A stretch of DNA of 17,038 bases from an uncultured Eubacteriales bacterium (GTDB lineage Bacteria; Bacillota_A; Clostridia; Christensenellales; Aristaeellaceae): the NCBI GenBank assembly GCA_900313545.1, contig OMRS01000164.1, positions 1 through 17,038 of the forward strand. The letters run 5' to 3'. How positions within the stretch are numbered: position 1 is the stretch's first letter; every line of letters begins with the position of its first letter. Under the pieces are notes generated by a model. It had not been told where the DNA came from. It searched no databases and saw only the letters and a program-made list of their open reading frames with translations. The translations under genes and the position numbers were made by a program. Of this stretch, positions 3,525 through 9,824 are shown in pieces.

Positions 3525-4205
3525 TCAGTACCCCTTGGCTTCCAGACCCTGAACCAGTTTGACGATCCGGCTGGTTCCCAGACGCTCCGCGCCCAGTTCA
3601 AGGAAACGGGATGCGTCATCCAGCGTGGCAATCCCGCCTGCCGCCTTGATCTTCTTTCCGTTTTTCATATTTCTGGCCATCAGCGCCACATCCTCAAAGG
3701 TGGCTCCTGCCGTTGAAAAGCCGGTGGAGGTCTTGATATAGTCCGCATCGGAGCGGGAGACGATGTCACACATGCGAACCTTCTCGTCCTCCGTCAGCAG
3801 GCAGGTCTCGATAATCACCTTCAGGATTCTCCCGTCACAGGCTTTCTTGACCTCATTGATCTCCTCCAGCACCCTGTCATCCTCTCCGGCCTTCAGCATG
3901 CCGATGTTGATGACCATGTCGATTTCATCCGCGCCTTCCTTCACCGCCTGGGCCGCTTCCGCAGCCTTGACAGCGGTGGTGTTGTATCCGTTGGGGAACC
4001 CGATCACCGTGCACACCCGCACGCCTTCCGGACGCTTCATGTACTGCGCAGCCCTTTCCACATAGCAGGGCGGGATGCACACGGAAGCGGTATGGTACTT
4101 CATGGCCTCATCGCACAGCGCCCTGATCTCCTGCCAGGTGCTCTGCTGCTTGAGCAGGGTATGGTCACAGCTTGCCAGAATCTTCTCATTTGTCATTGTC
4201 ATCAC
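3525..4205 (-). CDS. deoC: Deoxyribose-phosphate aldolase
   Basis: Class I aldolase cleaving 2-deoxyribose-5-phosphate to glyceraldehyde-3-phosphate and acetaldehyde, the last step of deoxynucleoside breakdown; cytosolic. 226 aa. Seen: DHTLLK near the N-terminus, proton-relay Asp96 in DMVINIG, Schiff-base Lys158 in KTSTGFS and Lys187 in KAAGGI. The start is slightly ambiguous: GTG at 4205 has AAGGG 7 nt upstream, the adjacent ATG at 4202 is equally possible, and ATG at 4196 is a third choice. It follows the dehydrogenase gene by 38 nt on the same strand, so it is probably cotranscribed with it, although nucleoside genes (deoA, deoB, pdp) are not nearby. Confidence 0.95.
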   Translation of the reverse strand: MMTMTNEKILASCDHTLLKQQSTWQEIRALCDEAMKYHTASVCIPPCYVERAAQYMKRPEGVRVCTVIGFPNGYNTTAVKAAEAAQAVKEGADEIDMVINIGMLKAGEDDRVLEEINEVKKACDGRILKVIIETCLLTEDEKVRMCDIVSRSDADYIKTSTGFSTAGATFEDVALMARNMKNGKKIKAAGGIATLDDASRFLELGAERLGTSRIVKLVQGLEAKGY

Positions 4206-4243
4206 CCGGAGTCCCTTGCTCCTTTTCCTTTCCTGATTTGTGT

Positions 4244-5017
4244 TCAGAGTTTCCGTATCAGTGTCCAGATACGCATAAACAGCTCAGAAGGCATCAGTTT
4301 GAGCAGCAGACGGCAGACTTTTGCCACTGGCCCCGCCGAACAGACCGGAAGCCCCATCCGCGTATACTGCAATGCCCGTCTTGCCACATTCACCTGACTG
4401 GACGCCATGGGAAAATGCCGGATCCATTCCTTCCCGTCCGTCTTTCTCGCCTCAGGGATGAAGCCCGTATCCCCGATCCAGTACGGGCACACCGCTGTCA
4501 CACTGATGCGCCTTGAACGCAGCTCCTTGCGCAGCGCTCTTGACCACCTGTACAAAAAGGCCTTCGTGGCCGCATAAACCGACATCAGGGGAATCGGCGC
4601 AAACGCCGCCACCGAACAGATGTTCATGATGCGGCTTCCCGGCTCCATGAAGGGCAGGAACAGATGCACCATCTGCAGCGGAACGCGGCAGTTGAGTTCC
4701 ACCATCCGCATCTGCTCCTGTGCACCGATTTCCTCCGGCATGCCGATTCGGCCGATCCCTGCGTTGTTCACAAGCAGTGCCACCGTGGGACTCTCCTGTT
4801 CCAGAACGGACTGCAGCTGCTGCACGGACTCCATCTCGCATAAATCCATGAAGAAAAGCCGGAGCGGGAGCCCCACCTCCTGTTCCAGACGCTCCAGCGC
4901 CTGACGGTTTCTGGCGATACACCAGATTTCCTGGATCCCCTGAGGCTCCTCCGCCAGCTGCCTGACCATCTCGCAGCCCAGGCCCCCGGAGGCCCCCGTT
5001 ATCACCGCAATCCGCAT
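4244..5017 (-). CDS. Short-chain dehydrogenase/reductase (SDR), substrate unknown
   Basis: Classical SDR oxidoreductase using NAD(P)H. 257 aa with all family landmarks: TGASGGLG (7-14) for the cofactor, NNAG (84-87), catalytic Ser135 in CSVAAF and Tyr148-x3-Lys152 in YAATK. The hydrophobic C-terminal segment (PVAKVCRLLLKLMPSELFMRIW) resembles SDRs that act on lipophilic substrates or sit at the membrane, but this is only suggestive. Its ATG lies 3 nt after the stop of the TIM-barrel gene, so the two are almost certainly coupled; deoC follows after 38 nt. Specificity cannot be read from sequence. Confidence 0.9.
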   Translation of the reverse strand: MRIAVITGASGGLGCEMVRQLAEEPQGIQEIWCIARNRQALERLEQEVGLPLRLFFMDLCEMESVQQLQSVLEQESPTVALLVNNAGIGRIGMPEEIGAQEQMRMVELNCRVPLQMVHLFLPFMEPGSRIMNICSVAAFAPIPLMSVYAATKAFLYRWSRALRKELRSRRISVTAVCPYWIGDTGFIPEARKTDGKEWIRHFPMASSQVNVARRALQYTRMGLPVCSAGPVAKVCRLLLKLMPSELFMRIWTLIRKL

Positions 5018-5020
5018 CGT

Positions 5021-5839
5021 TTACGCCCCCAGCCAGCCGCGCATCCGCTCGCAGTCCTCCTGCAGGCGTTCTGCACAGCTGCCTTCCAGAATCAGAGGCA
5101 GATACTCATAACATCCCTGAATCTGCGGAAGCAGGTTTTCCCAGTCCATGACCCCCTCGCCCAGCGGGCATTCCTTCCAGCATCCCTTTTCATCAAAACA
5201 TCCATCCCGGACAATGACCGCACAAATCCGCCTTCCCAGGGAGGAGATGCACCGCTTAAGCAGGTCCTGCTGGTCCCGGGCATCGGACAGCTCACCCGTC
5301 ATCAGCCCTGCCAGGTCCAGCACCATGGCCAGATGTCCGTCATGGCAGTCTGCAACCAGTTGTCCTGCCATCTCCGGCGTATGGATGATCTGACCCGCGG
5401 AAGGCCGGATCCCGACGATGGCGCAAAGCTTTCTGGCTTCCTTCAGCACTTCCTCGCAAAAGTCCACCACTCTCCTGTATGCAGCTTCACGCTGGTTCTC
5501 TTCACCCTCATATGCCGCCGTCCCTGTTTCCACACAAACCGCCCCAAGGGGAATGCTGGCGCGCAGCAGGCTTGTAAACCTGTCAACGGACCGGGTCTCT
5601 GAATCGTCGCACCCGGCGCTGACCTGGCAGTCCATCAGAGCAATACAAATCCCATTCCCATAAAATGTATGAAACAGTGTCTGAAGAGCTTCCCGGGACA
5701 AAAGCACCGTTTCCTCCGTCTCAACAAGCATCTTCTCCAAATTCAAATGGACGGCCTGACACCCCGACGCGCTTGCCAGCCCGGCAATCGCATCCGGTGA
5801 CAGCCGCCCCAAATCCTGAGCCCTGATTCCGATCAACAT
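5021..5839 (-). CDS. Sugar phosphate isomerase/epimerase-like TIM-barrel protein
   Basis: Xylose-isomerase-like (AP endonuclease 2) TIM barrel, 272 aa. The start is ATG 5839, preceded by GGAGG at a normal distance; an in-frame start 15 codons upstream would lie in the promoter region. Family features are VLDLAGL with Asp175, VIVRD (208-212) followed by a glycine, PLGEG...DW (225-233) and a C-terminal LILEG with Glu252. Two usual metal-binding positions look replaced: the beta-strand Glu near IVGIRPS and the His of the usual HxKD motif, which here reads IVRD. It may therefore have a different or lost metal site. First gene of the unit with the SDR and deoC. Function unknown; an isomerase or epimerase role is inferred from fold only. 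Confidence 0.72.
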   Translation of the reverse strand: MLIGIRAQDLGRLSPDAIAGLASASGCQAVHLNLEKMLVETEETVLLSREALQTLFHTFYGNGICIALMDCQVSAGCDDSETRSVDRFTSLLRASIPLGAVCVETGTAAYEGEENQREAAYRRVVDFCEEVLKEARKLCAIVGIRPSAGQIIHTPEMAGQLVADCHDGHLAMVLDLAGLMTGELSDARDQQDLLKRCISSLGRRICAVIVRDGCFDEKGCWKECPLGEGVMDWENLLPQIQGCYEYLPLILEGSCAERLQEDCERMRGWLGA

Positions 5840-5875
5840 TATATAAAAACCTCCGAAGTGGCTGATTTTGAATCT

Positions 5876-5903
5876 AGTATACACCGAAATACAGGGATGG
5901 AAA
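5876..5903 (-). promoter_or_regulatory. Promoter of the TIM-barrel/SDR/deoC unit
   Basis: Minus strand: TTTCCA (5903-5898), a 16-nt spacer and TATACT (5881-5876). The start point would fall near 5869, leaving a leader of about 30 nt with the GGAGG site. Confidence 0.5.
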
Positions 5904-6153
5904 AGGCAAACGCCTAAAAAAGTTTCGTCTCTTTATTTATATCCTTCATCGCTTATTTTACGTAATAAATAGATTCTTGATCAATTCTTACAGCTATTTT
6001 TTCACTTTTTCAACCACTTCTCCTCTTTTTGGAAGTCCGCCCCTTTGTTCTGTTTTATATTATTTCTGTATCGCATCCGTATTATTGCGTAATTTTATTT
6101 CTCGCTTATTTTTATTTCCGCGTTTTTTGAACATCCTTCTTCTTTTCACGGAA
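5904..6153. other. A+T-rich non-coding tract
   Basis: About 250 bp much richer in A and T than the rest of the window, full of T/A runs (on the minus strand runs such as AAATAAAAATAAG). No frame carries a credible protein. It separates the 3' end of the putative intron from the TIM-barrel promoter. It could be an upstream activating (UP-element-like) region or remains of a lost element; I cannot tell which. Confidence 0.4.
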
Positions 6154-6809
6154 ATCGGACAGGATGGGATGGCTCCCCCCCGTCCTCCTCACCACCGCTC
6201 ACGCGGGCCCGCAGGCGGCGGTTCAGTTACTGGCACAAGATGGCACATTTGGCCGGAAATCGTCACGCCCCGCGATTCTGCCCTGCCTTCGGTCACTCAC
6301 CTGTCCTCGGGCAGACCTCCTCTTTCAGGCAGCTGTTTTCAACACGTCCGATTCCTGACTTGCTGCATGACCAGCAGCAGCCGGTCCCCTTCCTCCGTCA
6401 GCTTTTACCGGCTACCCAGGCACGATGGCCCAGACTGACTTCTGCGGGTTCAGTCATGCCTTACGGCATAAGTGACAGCTTGCACGCCGCGTACCCCCGC
6501 AGACCTCCCCGCTGAAGGTGCAGCAGCCTTCATTCCATGCAGCCTCCTCATTTACGTGACAGCATCCGGGCAGTATGGGACTTCGGCCTCAGCTGCAGCT
6601 TCGTCCGCTCTGCCCCGCCTGATATGCGATGTCTGTTCGTCGGCCCGGAACTTTGCCCTGCAGGATTCGTTGTTTCCCCCTGCCATCCGGCTTTCTTCAG
6701 ATTCCACCTCGCGATGGACGTCCCTGCCCCCGGCTAACGCTTCCTGCCACCAGGCGCGCAGTGGACTTTCCGCCGGGCTGTTGCCCATGACGGGCATACA
6801 GCAGGACAC
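6154..6809 (-). mobile_element. Putative ORF-less group II intron
   Basis: Read on the minus strand, the roughly 650 nt has the order of a bacterial group II intron. The 5' part (about 6790-6650) has CATGGGCAACAGCC, GGAAAGTCCACTGC, GGAAGCGTTAGCCG and GAGGTGGAATCTGAAG, which I recognise from domain I of introns in gut Clostridia. Then come GAAGTCAG and GACGTGTTGAAAACAG segments, a domain V-like hairpin (6224-6190) and a domain VI-like hairpin ending in CCGAT at 6154. The stretch where domain IV normally carries the reverse transcriptase (between about 6330 and 6225) is too short for any ORF, so splicing or mobility would need a maturase from elsewhere. The 5' end is uncertain: GTGTC at 6809 is a poor match to GUGYG. 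Identification rests on remembered family sequence and hairpin order. Confidence 0.7.
6190..6224 (-). ncRNA. Domain V-like hairpin of the putative group II intron
   Basis: Begins GAACCGCCGCC and ends GCGGTGGTG. ACCGCCGC pairs with GCGGTGGT as an 8-bp lower helix (one G-U), the form seen in many clostridial introns. The upper helix TGCGG/CCGCG leaves only a 2-nt loop, where a GNRA tetraloop is expected. A domain VI-like stem (GGAC...GTCC, 6187-6157) follows at once. Confidence 0.6.
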
Positions 6810-6841
6810 GGGCGCATTCCGCCGCTGGAATGCGCCCGTGT
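6806..6841 (-). terminator. Strong hairpin after the secreted-protein gene, without T-tract
   Basis: Perfect 15-bp stem (ACACGGGCGCATTCC, 6841-6827, with its complement, 6820-6806) and a 6-nt loop, 11 nt past the stop at 6853. A terminator would be followed by Ts, but here CCTGCTGTATG follows, the first bases of the putative intron. Probably the terminator of the gene upstream, separated from its T-tract by the intron. Confidence 0.6.
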
Positions 6842-6852
6842 CACAGGAGGAA

Positions 6853-7449
6853 TTATTCTGTCCAGATAGATTGGAAAATCTCAACCGCAAAAGCCCTGTC
6901 CTCTTCCGTCAGAGGAGAAAAGTCCGACCGCGCCTGATACATATCGATTTTAAAGTCTTCGTAGATGGTGGACACAATGGCCTGTACACCATCCTGGGCA
7001 ACCAGATAGGTATTCCCGCCTTCGCTCTTGAAGGAAGTCACCTGAGCCTTGTCTTCATCGAACTGCATGCTCATCTGCTCACCGTAGGCCTTCAGCTCTT
7101 CCTCCGTCGCATTGTTGAGATTGGCATGCGCCCCCATCTCAGCGGATGCCAGGGAAAGGATAATGGAGGACGGTTCTCCCTCCCGGCTGATTTGGGCAAA
7201 ATAGAAGTCCTTTGCCTGATCCGGAGCATAGAAGGTCTGGATGGTAATCGGTGACTTGGGGTCGATCGTGACCTTGACCGTCACCTCCACATCATTGCCG
7301 TTTTCATCGTTTTCCTGCATGGTATGCTCCCAAAGCACCGTCTTCTCCGTCACGCTCACCGGAGCCTGAACCCCTTTTCCTTCAGCAAGGATCCCGGAAG
7401 CGCCCAAAAGCAGCATGATCGCGCACAGTATCGCTGTCAGTTTTTTCAT
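6853..7449 (-). CDS. Secreted protein of unknown function
   Basis: 198 aa, starting at ATG 7449 behind AAAGGAG; a longer in-frame start exists but lacks a signal peptide at its end. The N-terminus (MKKLTAILCAIMLLLG, then ASGILA) is a classic signal peptide with likely cleavage after ILA, and there is no lipobox cysteine, so the protein should be released outside the membrane. The mature part is acidic and mixed alpha/beta, with VEVTVKVTIDPKSP and a C-terminal TEEDRAFAVEIFQSIWTE. I do not recognise a family. The gene starts 34 nt after the SH3b gene ends, so the two are probably one unit and may act together at the cell surface. Confidence 0.85.
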   Translation of the reverse strand: MKKLTAILCAIMLLLGASGILAEGKGVQAPVSVTEKTVLWEHTMQENDENGNDVEVTVKVTIDPKSPITIQTFYAPDQAKDFYFAQISREGEPSSIILSLASAEMGAHANLNNATEEELKAYGEQMSMQFDEDKAQVTSFKSEGGNTYLVAQDGVQAIVSTIYEDFKIDMYQARSDFSPLTEEDRAFAVEIFQSIWTE

Positions 7450-7483
7450 GGTACTTCTCCTTTGATGTTCTTCTCTCCGCATA

Positions 7484-8032
7484 TCAGCCTTCCCCCAGGT
7501 CATCGACCCTCTGCAGCAGAGCCTTCATGATATATCCGGTTGCCCCTGTGGATTCATCCTCCACCTGGCACCATGCGCCGTTCTCAGCGATGACCCTGAG
7601 CGGATAGCCATAATAGAAGACATTGACGATCTGACTGGATTTGCTGGGAGCGGCACGCATGTTGACCACGACATTGCTCGGATTGGCAATCACATTGTAA
7701 CTGGTCGTGTAGAAACTCTCATGCTCCATGGCCGTGGGGCTCCTGTCCTCATCCCCGGGATGATGCCGGCTCAGGCAGTTGGCTGCAACCCAGCCCACCC
7801 CATCATCAAACTGGATCTTGGCCCAGCCCTTTTCCTTGGTAATGACCTCCACCTTGGCCCCTCTGGAAAGCTGACCGATGACGTCACAGTCCGTTCCGGC
7901 CCCGTCCCGGACATTGAGGCGCTTGTTGCTTTTGACGTAATACGTGGTGGATGCCGCTGCCGCCGCGCACAGGGTCACCATCAACACGCACAGCAGAAGC
8001 AGCGCAGCGATTTTTCCATTCCTTTTCTTCAT
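7484..8032 (-). CDS. Secreted protein with two SH3b domains
   Basis: 182 aa. ATG 8032 follows GGAGGAG at a good distance, and the product opens with a signal peptide (MKKRNGKIAALLLLCVLMV, then TLCAAAAA). Two bacterial SH3-type domains follow. The first spans about 31-88 (RLNVRDGAGTDCDVIGQL, KGWAKIQF, GWVAANCL) and the second about 118-174 (VNMRAAPSKSSQIV, GAWCQVEDE, GYIMKALL). Such domains bind cell wall peptides; no catalytic domain is attached, so it is more likely a wall-binding or adaptor protein than a hydrolase. First gene of a two-gene unit with the secreted protein at 6853-7449. No strong promoter was seen in the 93 nt upstream, so read-through from the ABC genes is possible. Confidence 0.88.
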   Translation of the reverse strand: MKKRNGKIAALLLLCVLMVTLCAAAAASTTYYVKSNKRLNVRDGAGTDCDVIGQLSRGAKVEVITKEKGWAKIQFDDGVGWVAANCLSRHHPGDEDRSPTAMEHESFYTTSYNVIANPSNVVVNMRAAPSKSSQIVNVFYYGYPLRVIAENGAWCQVEDESTGATGYIMKALLQRVDDLGEG

Positions 8033-8080
8033 TCGTTTCTCCTCCGTTACCCTCTGTCTGATTTGACGCATGTATAACAG

Positions 8081-8112
8081 CAGCCAGGAACCGCGCATCA
8101 TGTTCCTGGCTG
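8081..8112 (-). terminator. Hairpin between the ABC ATPase gene and the SH3b gene
   Basis: Perfect 11-bp stem CAGCCAGGAAC / GTTCCTGGCTG with a 10-nt loop, 14 nt after the ATPase stop. No run of Ts follows on either strand, so it may be a weak terminator, a processing site or an mRNA stabiliser. Confidence 0.5.
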
Positions 8113-8920: not shown

Positions 8921-9824
8921 TGCGGTCGCCTCCCTTCATGCGGCCTCCCCGCCAGTAGGGGATGGCCAGGAAAATTCCGACGATCAGCGCCGTCAGCAGC
9001 TTCAGGTCATTGGTGTTGAGGCCCAGCCACAGCACCACCTGAATCACCAGGTAGTACAAAATGGCGCCGATGGAGACGGCCAGCAGCTTCAGTGCAAAAT
9101 TGATGAAGATCTTTCCGAAGATCACCTCGCCGATGATGACCGCAGCCAGGCCGATGACGATGGCGCCCCGGCCCATCTGGACATCAGCAAATCCCTGGTA
9201 CTGGGTCAGCAGTGCACCTGAGAGGGCCACAATGCCGTTGCTGATCATCAGGCCGACCACCTTGCAGCTCTCCGTGTTGATTCCCTGGGCCCTGGCCATG
9301 TTGCCATTGGCGCCGGTCGCACGGAGGGAGCAGCCGTATTCCGTGCCGAAGAACCAGTACATGGCGGCAATCAGGGCCACGGTATAGATGATCATGATAA
9401 AGATCGGATTCTCCAGGGACAGCGTGCGGACATTGCGCAGTGAGACCACCAGAGGATACTTGCTGGCGTTCAGGGCCACATTGGCCTTTCCGTCCATGAT
9501 CCGCAGATTGATGGAATACAGACCCAGCTGGGTCAGAATTCCGCTCAGGATGGCAGGGATTCCCATGAAGGTATGAAAGACACCTGTCATCAGTCCCGCA
9601 AGCATTCCGCACAGGAACGCGATTCCCATGGCAATATATACATTGCAGCCGCTTCCGATCAGGACAGCGGCCACCGCACCTCCGGTGGCAATGGACCCGT
9701 CCACCGTCAAATCCGCCACATCCAGTATCCGGTATGTGATGTAGACGCCGATGGCCATCATTCCCCAGATCAGGCCCTGGGCACCGGCACCGGGCAGTGC
9801 GTTAATCAGCTTGACTATTTCCAA
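8913..9824 (-). CDS. ABC transporter permease (branched-chain/TrpY type)
   Basis: Membrane channel of the importer. 303 aa with about eight hydrophobic spans and the BPD_transp_2 style ITYRILDVADLTVDGSIATG near the N-terminus, typical of permeases paired with PF04392 binding proteins. I set the start at the TTG at 9824 because AGGAGGAG lies just upstream at ideal spacing; the longer reading would run through the promoter and has no ribosome binding site. Overlaps the ATPase gene by 8 nt. The 137-nt gap to the binding-protein gene holds a terminator and a second promoter, so permease and ATPase can be expressed separately. Confidence 0.92.
   Translation of the reverse strand: MEIVKLINALPGAGAQGLIWGMMAIGVYITYRILDVADLTVDGSIATGGAVAAVLIGSGCNVYIAMGIAFLCGMLAGLMTGVFHTFMGIPAILSGILTQLGLYSINLRIMDGKANVALNASKYPLVVSLRNVRTLSLENPIFIMIIYTVALIAAMYWFFGTEYGCSLRATGANGNMARAQGINTESCKVVGLMISNGIVALSGALLTQYQGFADVQMGRGAIVIGLAAVIIGEVIFGKIFINFALKLLAVSIGAILYYLVIQVVLWLGLNTNDLKLLTALIVGIFLAIPYWRGGRMKGGDRSA

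Follow-up and report, generated by a model that had tools for sequence, protein, structure and literature searches.

A probably worn member of a family of ORF-less group IIC introns located behind terminator hairpins

Introduction

The TeI3 introns are group IIB introns. As far as the portion of the published account at hand goes, 17 ORF-less copies of them are present in Thermosynechococcus elongatus, sharing the same deletion breakpoints and retaining remnants of the ORF ends; they were traced to a single ORF deletion and occupy sites with mostly good EBS/IBS pairings, and in assays 'driver' IEPs mobilised them in trans (Mohr et al. 2010, PMC2882425). A further ORF-less group II intron, C.te.I1 of Clostridium tetani (PMC3919590; reviewed in PMC4424553), is said in the review excerpt at hand to undergo alternative splicing within a surface-layer gene, the genome having no IEP-related gene (PMC4424553). 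In the Listeria phage LPJP1, three ORF-less introns stand beside one that bears a reverse transcriptase (RT), and the part of that report at hand suggests that they use the RT of another intron (PMC12350094).

According to the same excerpt of the 2015 review, bacterial ORF-less group II introns are rare, and few would have been overlooked unless their domain V is unlike known ones (PMC4424553). A 2022 survey, which required an RF00029 score above 24 bits, found ORF-less introns increased in certain genomes, their class not being seen in the text at hand (PMC8919778); multi-copy ORF-less introns as such are therefore not new. Among the open-access matches listed, a multi-copy family of ORF-less group IIC introns is not described in any title or abstract start.

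Here we analyze a stretch of 17,038 nt from an uncultured Eubacteriales bacterium (contig OMRS01000164.1), henceforth the window, in which an earlier note, made from the letters alone, had proposed a compact group II intron without RT on the minus strand. Loci, genomes and contigs are referred to by our own handles (L, G and C, respectively).

Identity and limits of the intron

The element is an ORF-less group II intron and its class is group IIC (class C). Its parts and immediate surroundings are as follows.

6153-6799 (-): whole element, ORF-less group IIC intron, 647 nt, starting with GTATGCCC and ending with CCGATT
6519-6718 (-): domain I core, RF02001 (group-II-D1D4-3), 100.2 bits, E 8.1e-20
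6591-6594 (-): EBS1 (AGCT), its column supported by a flank-pairing test over 17 copies
6386-6474 (-): segment 3′ of domain I, RF01998, 23.8 bits, below the gathering score of 35
6226-6348 (-): remnant of the RT start region (GTGTTGAAA.CAG) with shortened domain IV
6191-6222 (-): domain V, from model R1, RNAfold and the alignment
6153-6189 (-): domain VI, with G at 6160 in the branch-point A column
6800-6803 (-): IBS1 (TGCT), last 4 nt of the 5′ flank, three of four Watson-Crick pairs with EBS1 AGCT
6805-6842 (-): 16-bp terminator-like hairpin, target stem of group IIC insertion

The signature blocks that had first suggested an intron are present on the minus strand and in order, namely GGAAAGTCCAC (6771-6761), GGAAGCGTTAGCC (6744-6732), GAGGTGGAATCTGAAG (6710-6695) and GACGTGTTGAAAACAG (6348-6333), and are followed in the right order by the domain V- and VI-like hairpins (D5/D6, 6223-6153). 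A compact group II intron is confirmed by the RF02001 match to domain I, which has the fold and sequence of a group II intron and which was the check proposed with the Rfam D1D4 models, together with recognition of D5/D6 by the class C model R1 described below. In the Rfam scan of the window, this RF02001 match alone scores above gathering. The earlier limits, 6154-6809, enclose the element but are slightly too wide at the 5′ side, 6800-6809 being upstream flank. Likewise, the description as an RT-less compact group II intron stands, while the group IIC class, the hairpin site and the multi-copy family had been missed. The segment matched weakly by RF01998 scores 44-50 bits in the relatives L055, L058, L068, L069 and L071 and 26.6 bits in L046.

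Domain V consists of a 9-bp lower helix, a UG bulge of 2 nt, a 4-bp upper helix and a tetraloop. In the window it holds, by position, a CGC triad, which we take to be of class C type, with one C.A mismatch adjoining the bulge. Domain VI, on the other hand, lacks the bulged branch-point A, G standing in its place at 6160; this absence is read as decay of the window copy.

Within 3525-8101, the neighbours of the intron are a small protein gene (6853-7503) and a run of TIM-barrel, SDR and DeoC genes (5884-3525), all on the minus strand. The small protein gene is without a Pfam match and adjoins an SH3-domain gene.

Detection of domains V and VI

R1 is a covariance model of class C type D5/D6. The 13 sequences used to build it do not belong to the ORF-less family, and most lie behind an RT-sized frame, although an intact RT was checked in part only. 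In the window the model matches 6154-6223 (-) with 38.3 bits and an E-value of 2.6e-7 (filters off; E-values of R1 are rough), the next-best place scoring 12.3 bits. All 16 ORF-less loci given to the model, namely L046 and 15 of the 16 loci from the pattern scan described below (L068, cut at its 3′ end, was left out), score 62-80 bits.

The general domain V model, RF00029, yields no match in the window at E<=10. Absence of a covariance-model hit to domain V was what the earlier note had said would speak against an intron, and taken literally, with the Rfam model, this is what was found; domain V itself is nevertheless recovered by the class C model. At the gathering score, RF00029 finds none of four ORF-less loci (L046, L058, L069, L071) but all three uninterrupted RT-bearing class C controls (L012, L037, L041), and at E<=10 no match is listed for L046, L055, L068 or L069. 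Across 13 metagenome-assembled genomes (MAGs) with members of the family, with 150 candidates scored in G001, G004, G005, G006, G008, G012 and G013, 39 RF00029 matches are listed and none coincides with a known D5 of the ORF-less family. These misses may stem from the filters rather than the score, as the model was run filtered only. Two RF00029 matches are of interest: that on G003:C72 (39.9 bits) lies behind a stretch like the family 5′ end (L260), and that on G011:C149 (31.4 bits) belongs to an ORF-less class C intron of another lineage (L259). A UG bulge specific to the ORF-less family was considered and dropped, since the RT-bearing L012 has the same bulge.

A separate observation concerns L054 (4000-7750, Peptoclostridium plasmid NZ_CP007453.1), a twintron in which another group II intron, one that bears an RT (RF01999 at 5880-5996, RF00029 at 7622-7697), separates D5 from D6 of a class C intron, the class C D6 directly following the inner intron. 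Because its RF00029 match belongs to the inner intron, L054 was not counted as an RF00029-positive class C control.

A family of ORF-less introns

A gapped pattern, based on the window copy together with L046 (an ORF-less relative located on a viral contig), was run on genome contigs. It returned 17 stretches, 16 of which are real ORF-less introns, located in 13 MAGs; L063 was rejected as a chance match in coding DNA, having no intron ends and giving nothing with R1. The MAGs are mostly labelled Clostridia or Clostridiales, with one Ruminococcus, one Ruminococcaceae and one Selenomonadaceae, and several come from sheep or roe deer gut. On viral contigs the same pattern finds L046 only. A first viral pattern, GAGGTGGAATCTGAAG, gave 51 stretches, many of them by eye unrelated coding DNA and one, L046, an ORF-less relative. 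Partial or divergent members were added by blastn (among them L166 and L266 in G086, L170 in G102 and L261 in G003; R1 40-63 bits).

Thirteen full-length copies were aligned over 667 columns, leaving out the partial L170 and the divergent L166. The window copy is 79-83% identical to the other 12, which are 87-98% identical among themselves. A tree was computed from the first 420-430 nt at the 5′ side of 13 ORF-less and 15 RT-type rows (14 of the latter different; L053 and L165 failed the filter, and L021 is cut before an RT would show). In it, a branch supported at 100/100 sets the ORF-less rows apart from all others. Under midpoint rooting this branch sits inside the RT-type rows, of which L164, L168, L054 and L027 are nearest.

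Relatives of the host were also sought through the neighbouring protein at 5021-5884, for which the pattern scan confirmed none; among 396 genomes of the order of G005, its best match has 37% identity.

Several rearranged or additional elements were encountered. L260 (G003:C72, about 5093-5404, -) is a chimera of ~310 nt behind a terminator hairpin, composed of the first 67 nt of the family, an unrelated middle and a different D5/D6; its 67-nt stretch is 96% like the family 5′ end and lies ~180 nt before the RF00029 match. L155 (G010:C116, about 9115-9295, -) is a mini intron of ~180 nt with a strong hairpin upstream, in which ~115 nt from the start of a class C intron are followed by D5-D6. 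On the viral contig of L046, a second RF02001 match (914-1087, +, 88 bits) lies on the opposite strand near the ORF-less intron. Finally, L052 (4001-4377 of MT836484.1, labelled Bacteriophage sp.) is a partial ORF-less copy without the 5′ part and D3-D5, in which the RT-start region runs straight into D6.

Target sites

The window intron lies just behind its hairpin, the stem of which ends 5 nt before the intron. This hairpin, without a long U run and just downstream of the gene at 6853-7503, has an MFE of -33.8 kcal/mol over 48 nt (z -5.2). The same holds for most of the family: in 27 of 31 5′ flanks the last 48 nt have z < -1.5. Two duplicates (L231, L135) were dropped from this set, which likewise does not include L097, a near-duplicate of L089, or at least eight further 5′ ends in G001, G006 and G008. 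The flanks of L057, L080, L073 and L183 are without a clear hairpin, which counts against our main reading; L183 lies in apparent coding sequence.

EBS1 is formed by the 4 nt after CTGC (CAGC in L088); its pairing partner is the final 4 nt of the flank of the same copy. Over the 17 copies tested (L136 and L149 have no readable loop), 49 of 68 positions are Watson-Crick pairs, compared to 37.3 when loops are permuted among copies (p 2e-4). The position was first picked by eye; in a check that scanned the first 235 nt in 197 windows, its column ranks best (z 4.1). Pairing is poor in four copies, which likewise counts against the main reading (one of four positions in L073 and L074, two of four in L075 and L088).

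In G004, the intron (L058) stands behind a tRNA-terminator unit, which G008 has without an intron at 93% identity over the matched stretch; parts of this 5′ side also occur in G001. The 3′ side in G008 is different DNA, and the comparison shows the 5′ boundary and the 5′ side only of an empty site. No spanning empty site was found starting from the G005 copies (six genomes) or the G013 copies (45 genomes, seven candidates scored in each).

State of the window copy

A consensus structure of 197 pairs was made without the window copy, which breaks 26 of 194 of them, compared to 0-12 of 197 in the 12 other copies. When the structure is rebuilt without the tested copy, the ratio of broken pairs to the null expectation is 0.82 in the window (p 0.06) and 0-0.51 in the others (p<=0.002), indicating that structure is constrained in these 12 relatives. 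Moreover, the branch-point column holds A in all 12 other aligned copies, the tip branch of the window copy measures 0.25 as against 0.01-0.07, and its domain I scores 100 bits with RF02001, compared to 146-156 in L058, L068, L069 and L071 and 118 in L046. Taken together, the window copy is most likely a non-functional relic. It also carries six compensatory pairs where 2.5 are expected (p 0.03) and was therefore under constraint for part of its history. We read it as a copy of some age, functional on arrival and decayed since then.

That the window copy is still active, splicing by hydrolysis without a branch-point A, with a maturase supplied in trans, and could still move, is improbable in our judgement. 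Group IIC introns can splice by hydrolysis, the D5 triad and eight of nine lower-helix pairs are retained, three of the four EBS1 positions pair with the flank, and the compensatory pairs fit such activity as well. Against this, pair breakage is close to random expectation, the tip branch is long, and scores are weaker both in domain I and in D5/D6 (38 bits compared to 62-80). In spirit, the earlier note is probably wrong here: with the many pair-breaking changes and the lost branch-point A, a relic is likelier than a working intron. Its point that the intron would depend on a maturase from elsewhere is judged right.

The divergent L166 also looks like a relic, because its 31 broken pairs are near the null of 36.9 (p 0.07, with 100 substitutions). 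It is 78% identical to the window copy and shares 28 derived letters with it, but the tree does not group the two.

Probable loss of the reverse transcriptase

Domain IV of the window intron holds no RT reading frame. The longest sense stop-free stretch of the intron (81 codons) sits in the domain I part, and neither the sense ORF at 6552-6890 nor the two antisense ORFs in the intron has a Pfam match. With 111 nt between GACGTGTTGAAA and TGAACCGCCG, domain IV is indeed too short for an intron-encoded protein, as had been supposed from the letters.

What is left in the middle of the family resembles an RT gene start: the copies keep GTGTTGAAAGCAG, the start of the RT ORF of L053 (GTG TTG AAA GCA GAA TAC, MLKAEY). 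Translated from this remnant, the window frame meets a stop after six codons; among the ORF-less copies translated, eight in all, the stop comes after 6-14 codons. From the start of GTGTTGAAA through TGAACCGCCG, 16 of 18 loci (the window, L046 and the 16 pattern-scan loci) measure 130 nt, the exceptions being L062 with 131 and L055 with 143. This shared length is partly due to selection, because the search pattern admits only 115-145 nt there and misses other breakpoints. No RT was seen in the longer partial copies L085, L088 and L089, which are 3′ truncated. For the ORF-less family, one RT loss is the simplest reading: a single shared ORF deletion followed by several copies, as for TeI3, is what the data display, with the proviso that breakpoint sharing is partly pattern-selected.

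Alternatively, the family may not have moved RT-less, the copies having been made by RT-bearing ancestors and each having lost its RT later and independently. Other deletions are common in such introns (L052, L085, L170), an independent RT-less class C intron exists (L259), and one breakpoint is favoured by the search pattern. Nonetheless, we consider this very unlikely: the 12 other copies align with the window copy end to end, through the middle, the distance from GTGTTGAAA to the D5 start is constant in nearly all loci, and the ORF-less copies are one clade. Furthermore, among the matches examined (blastn, 13 + 150 genomes, many of the others being contig ends), there is no RT-bearing copy with at least 85% identity over domain I.

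L259 (about 245-905 of G011:C149; R1 61 bits, RF00029 31 bits) is a second, different ORF-less class C intron, lying behind a terminator hairpin; its domain I contains a tandem repeat of 24 nt, and it retains remnants of the RT start. L264 (G011:C7) is apparently a 5′ relative of it. As a second ORF-less lineage, L259 implies that RT loss has occurred more than once in class C.

Copies, movement and possible helpers

Several genomes carry multiple copies. G005 has at least 14 insertion sites with different flanks, comprising 12 contig ends that match the 48-55 nt at the start of the element with 100% identity, the full copy on C8 and the 3′-truncated copy on C29; its contigs break at the copies because the element is a repeat. 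Five 5′ ends each are found in G001 and G006. Copy numbers from MAGs are lower bounds, and since assemblies lose repeats, missing RTs prove little. The truncated copy on C29 (L085) is followed by AT-rich DNA with a frame of ~300 codons, and the tRNA-end/terminator sequence recurs after the intron, as it would for an integrated island.

Copies in G005 and G013 are 98% identical, while the genomes belong to different genus sets, which suggests recent transfer. The left flank in G013 has 71-76% matches in nine genomes of its own genus set, so the contig is not an obvious contamination.

The family looks like a non-autonomous element that would be moved in trans by class C reverse transcriptases. 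Matches to TIGR04416 occur in nine of the 13 MAGs, over the cut-off in two (G011, G012), and none was found in G003, G004, G007 and G013. The only match in G005, the genome with most copies, is weak (79.7 bits), which counts against the helper model. Over the aligned part, the RNA of the family is 72-73% identical to that of class C RT introns present in G012 and G011. A possible helper is another repeated class C family with the D5 end CGGTGCGG, observed at the G005 contig ends L156, L157 and L158 and in G127 (L159, L160). Its D6 is close to that of the ORF-less family, and it is represented by many contig ends, the bodies missing from the assemblies.

Discussion

Our main reading, to which we assign a probability of roughly 0.8, is that the intron in the window is a worn member of a family of ORF-less group IIC introns that spread in trans behind terminator hairpins. 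In one class C intron, most of the RT gene would have been deleted from domain IV, while the start region of this gene and the D5/D6 end were retained. This would have left a ribozyme of ~620-660 nt, which then spread among the Clostridia of gut and rumen, both within and between them, by reverse splicing behind terminator hairpins. The short EBS1-IBS1 pairing would have guided it, with the RT presumably supplied in trans by RT-bearing class C introns. The window copy would later have mutated nearly regardless of structure.

A domesticated element, whose intron RNA would serve the host from its place behind the terminator, for example in read-through transcripts, is scarcely plausible, as the position that speaks for it shows tolerance rather than use, flanks differ among copies and genomes, and the window copy decays without structural constraint.

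Going beyond the main reading of a worn copy, we slightly favour a wider account, in which the family would be a SINE-like group IIC ribozyme lineage that arose by one RT loss, persists only on borrowed RTs (class C, ~72% alike in RNA), re-targets by change of EBS1, reaches at least 14 copies per genome, crosses genera (the 98% identical copies), and was overlooked because its D5/D6 is missed by RF00029, a model commonly used in surveys. The family may accordingly be a blind spot of surveys, its D5/D6 being ordinary by a class C model but unreported by RF00029. A widespread lineage that lacks an RT and follows a simple target rule would open trans-mobilisation to tests in mesophiles, and it is relevant to the question of how introns could lose their proteins en route to spliceosomal introns.

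Compared to RT-bearing class C introns, the family has the same domain I (RF02001), the same D5/D6 layout and the same insertion behind terminators, but differs in that those introns carry an RT in domain IV and have D5/D6 seen by RF00029 in all three controls. As far as the portions of the sources at hand describe them, C.te.I1 is clostridial and ORF-less like the present family, but not a multi-copy family behind terminators, and the LPJP1 introns, likewise ORF-less and suggested to use the RT of another intron, are only 40-50% alike and confined to one phage genome. The closest precedent, by the same partial account, is TeI3, with ORF-less copies from one ORF deletion as in the present family. 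Mobility of TeI3 was seen in assays, whereas the present family is known from sequence alone; and while TeI3 belongs to one thermophile, the family described here is group IIC, lies behind terminator hairpins and extends over at least 13 MAGs.
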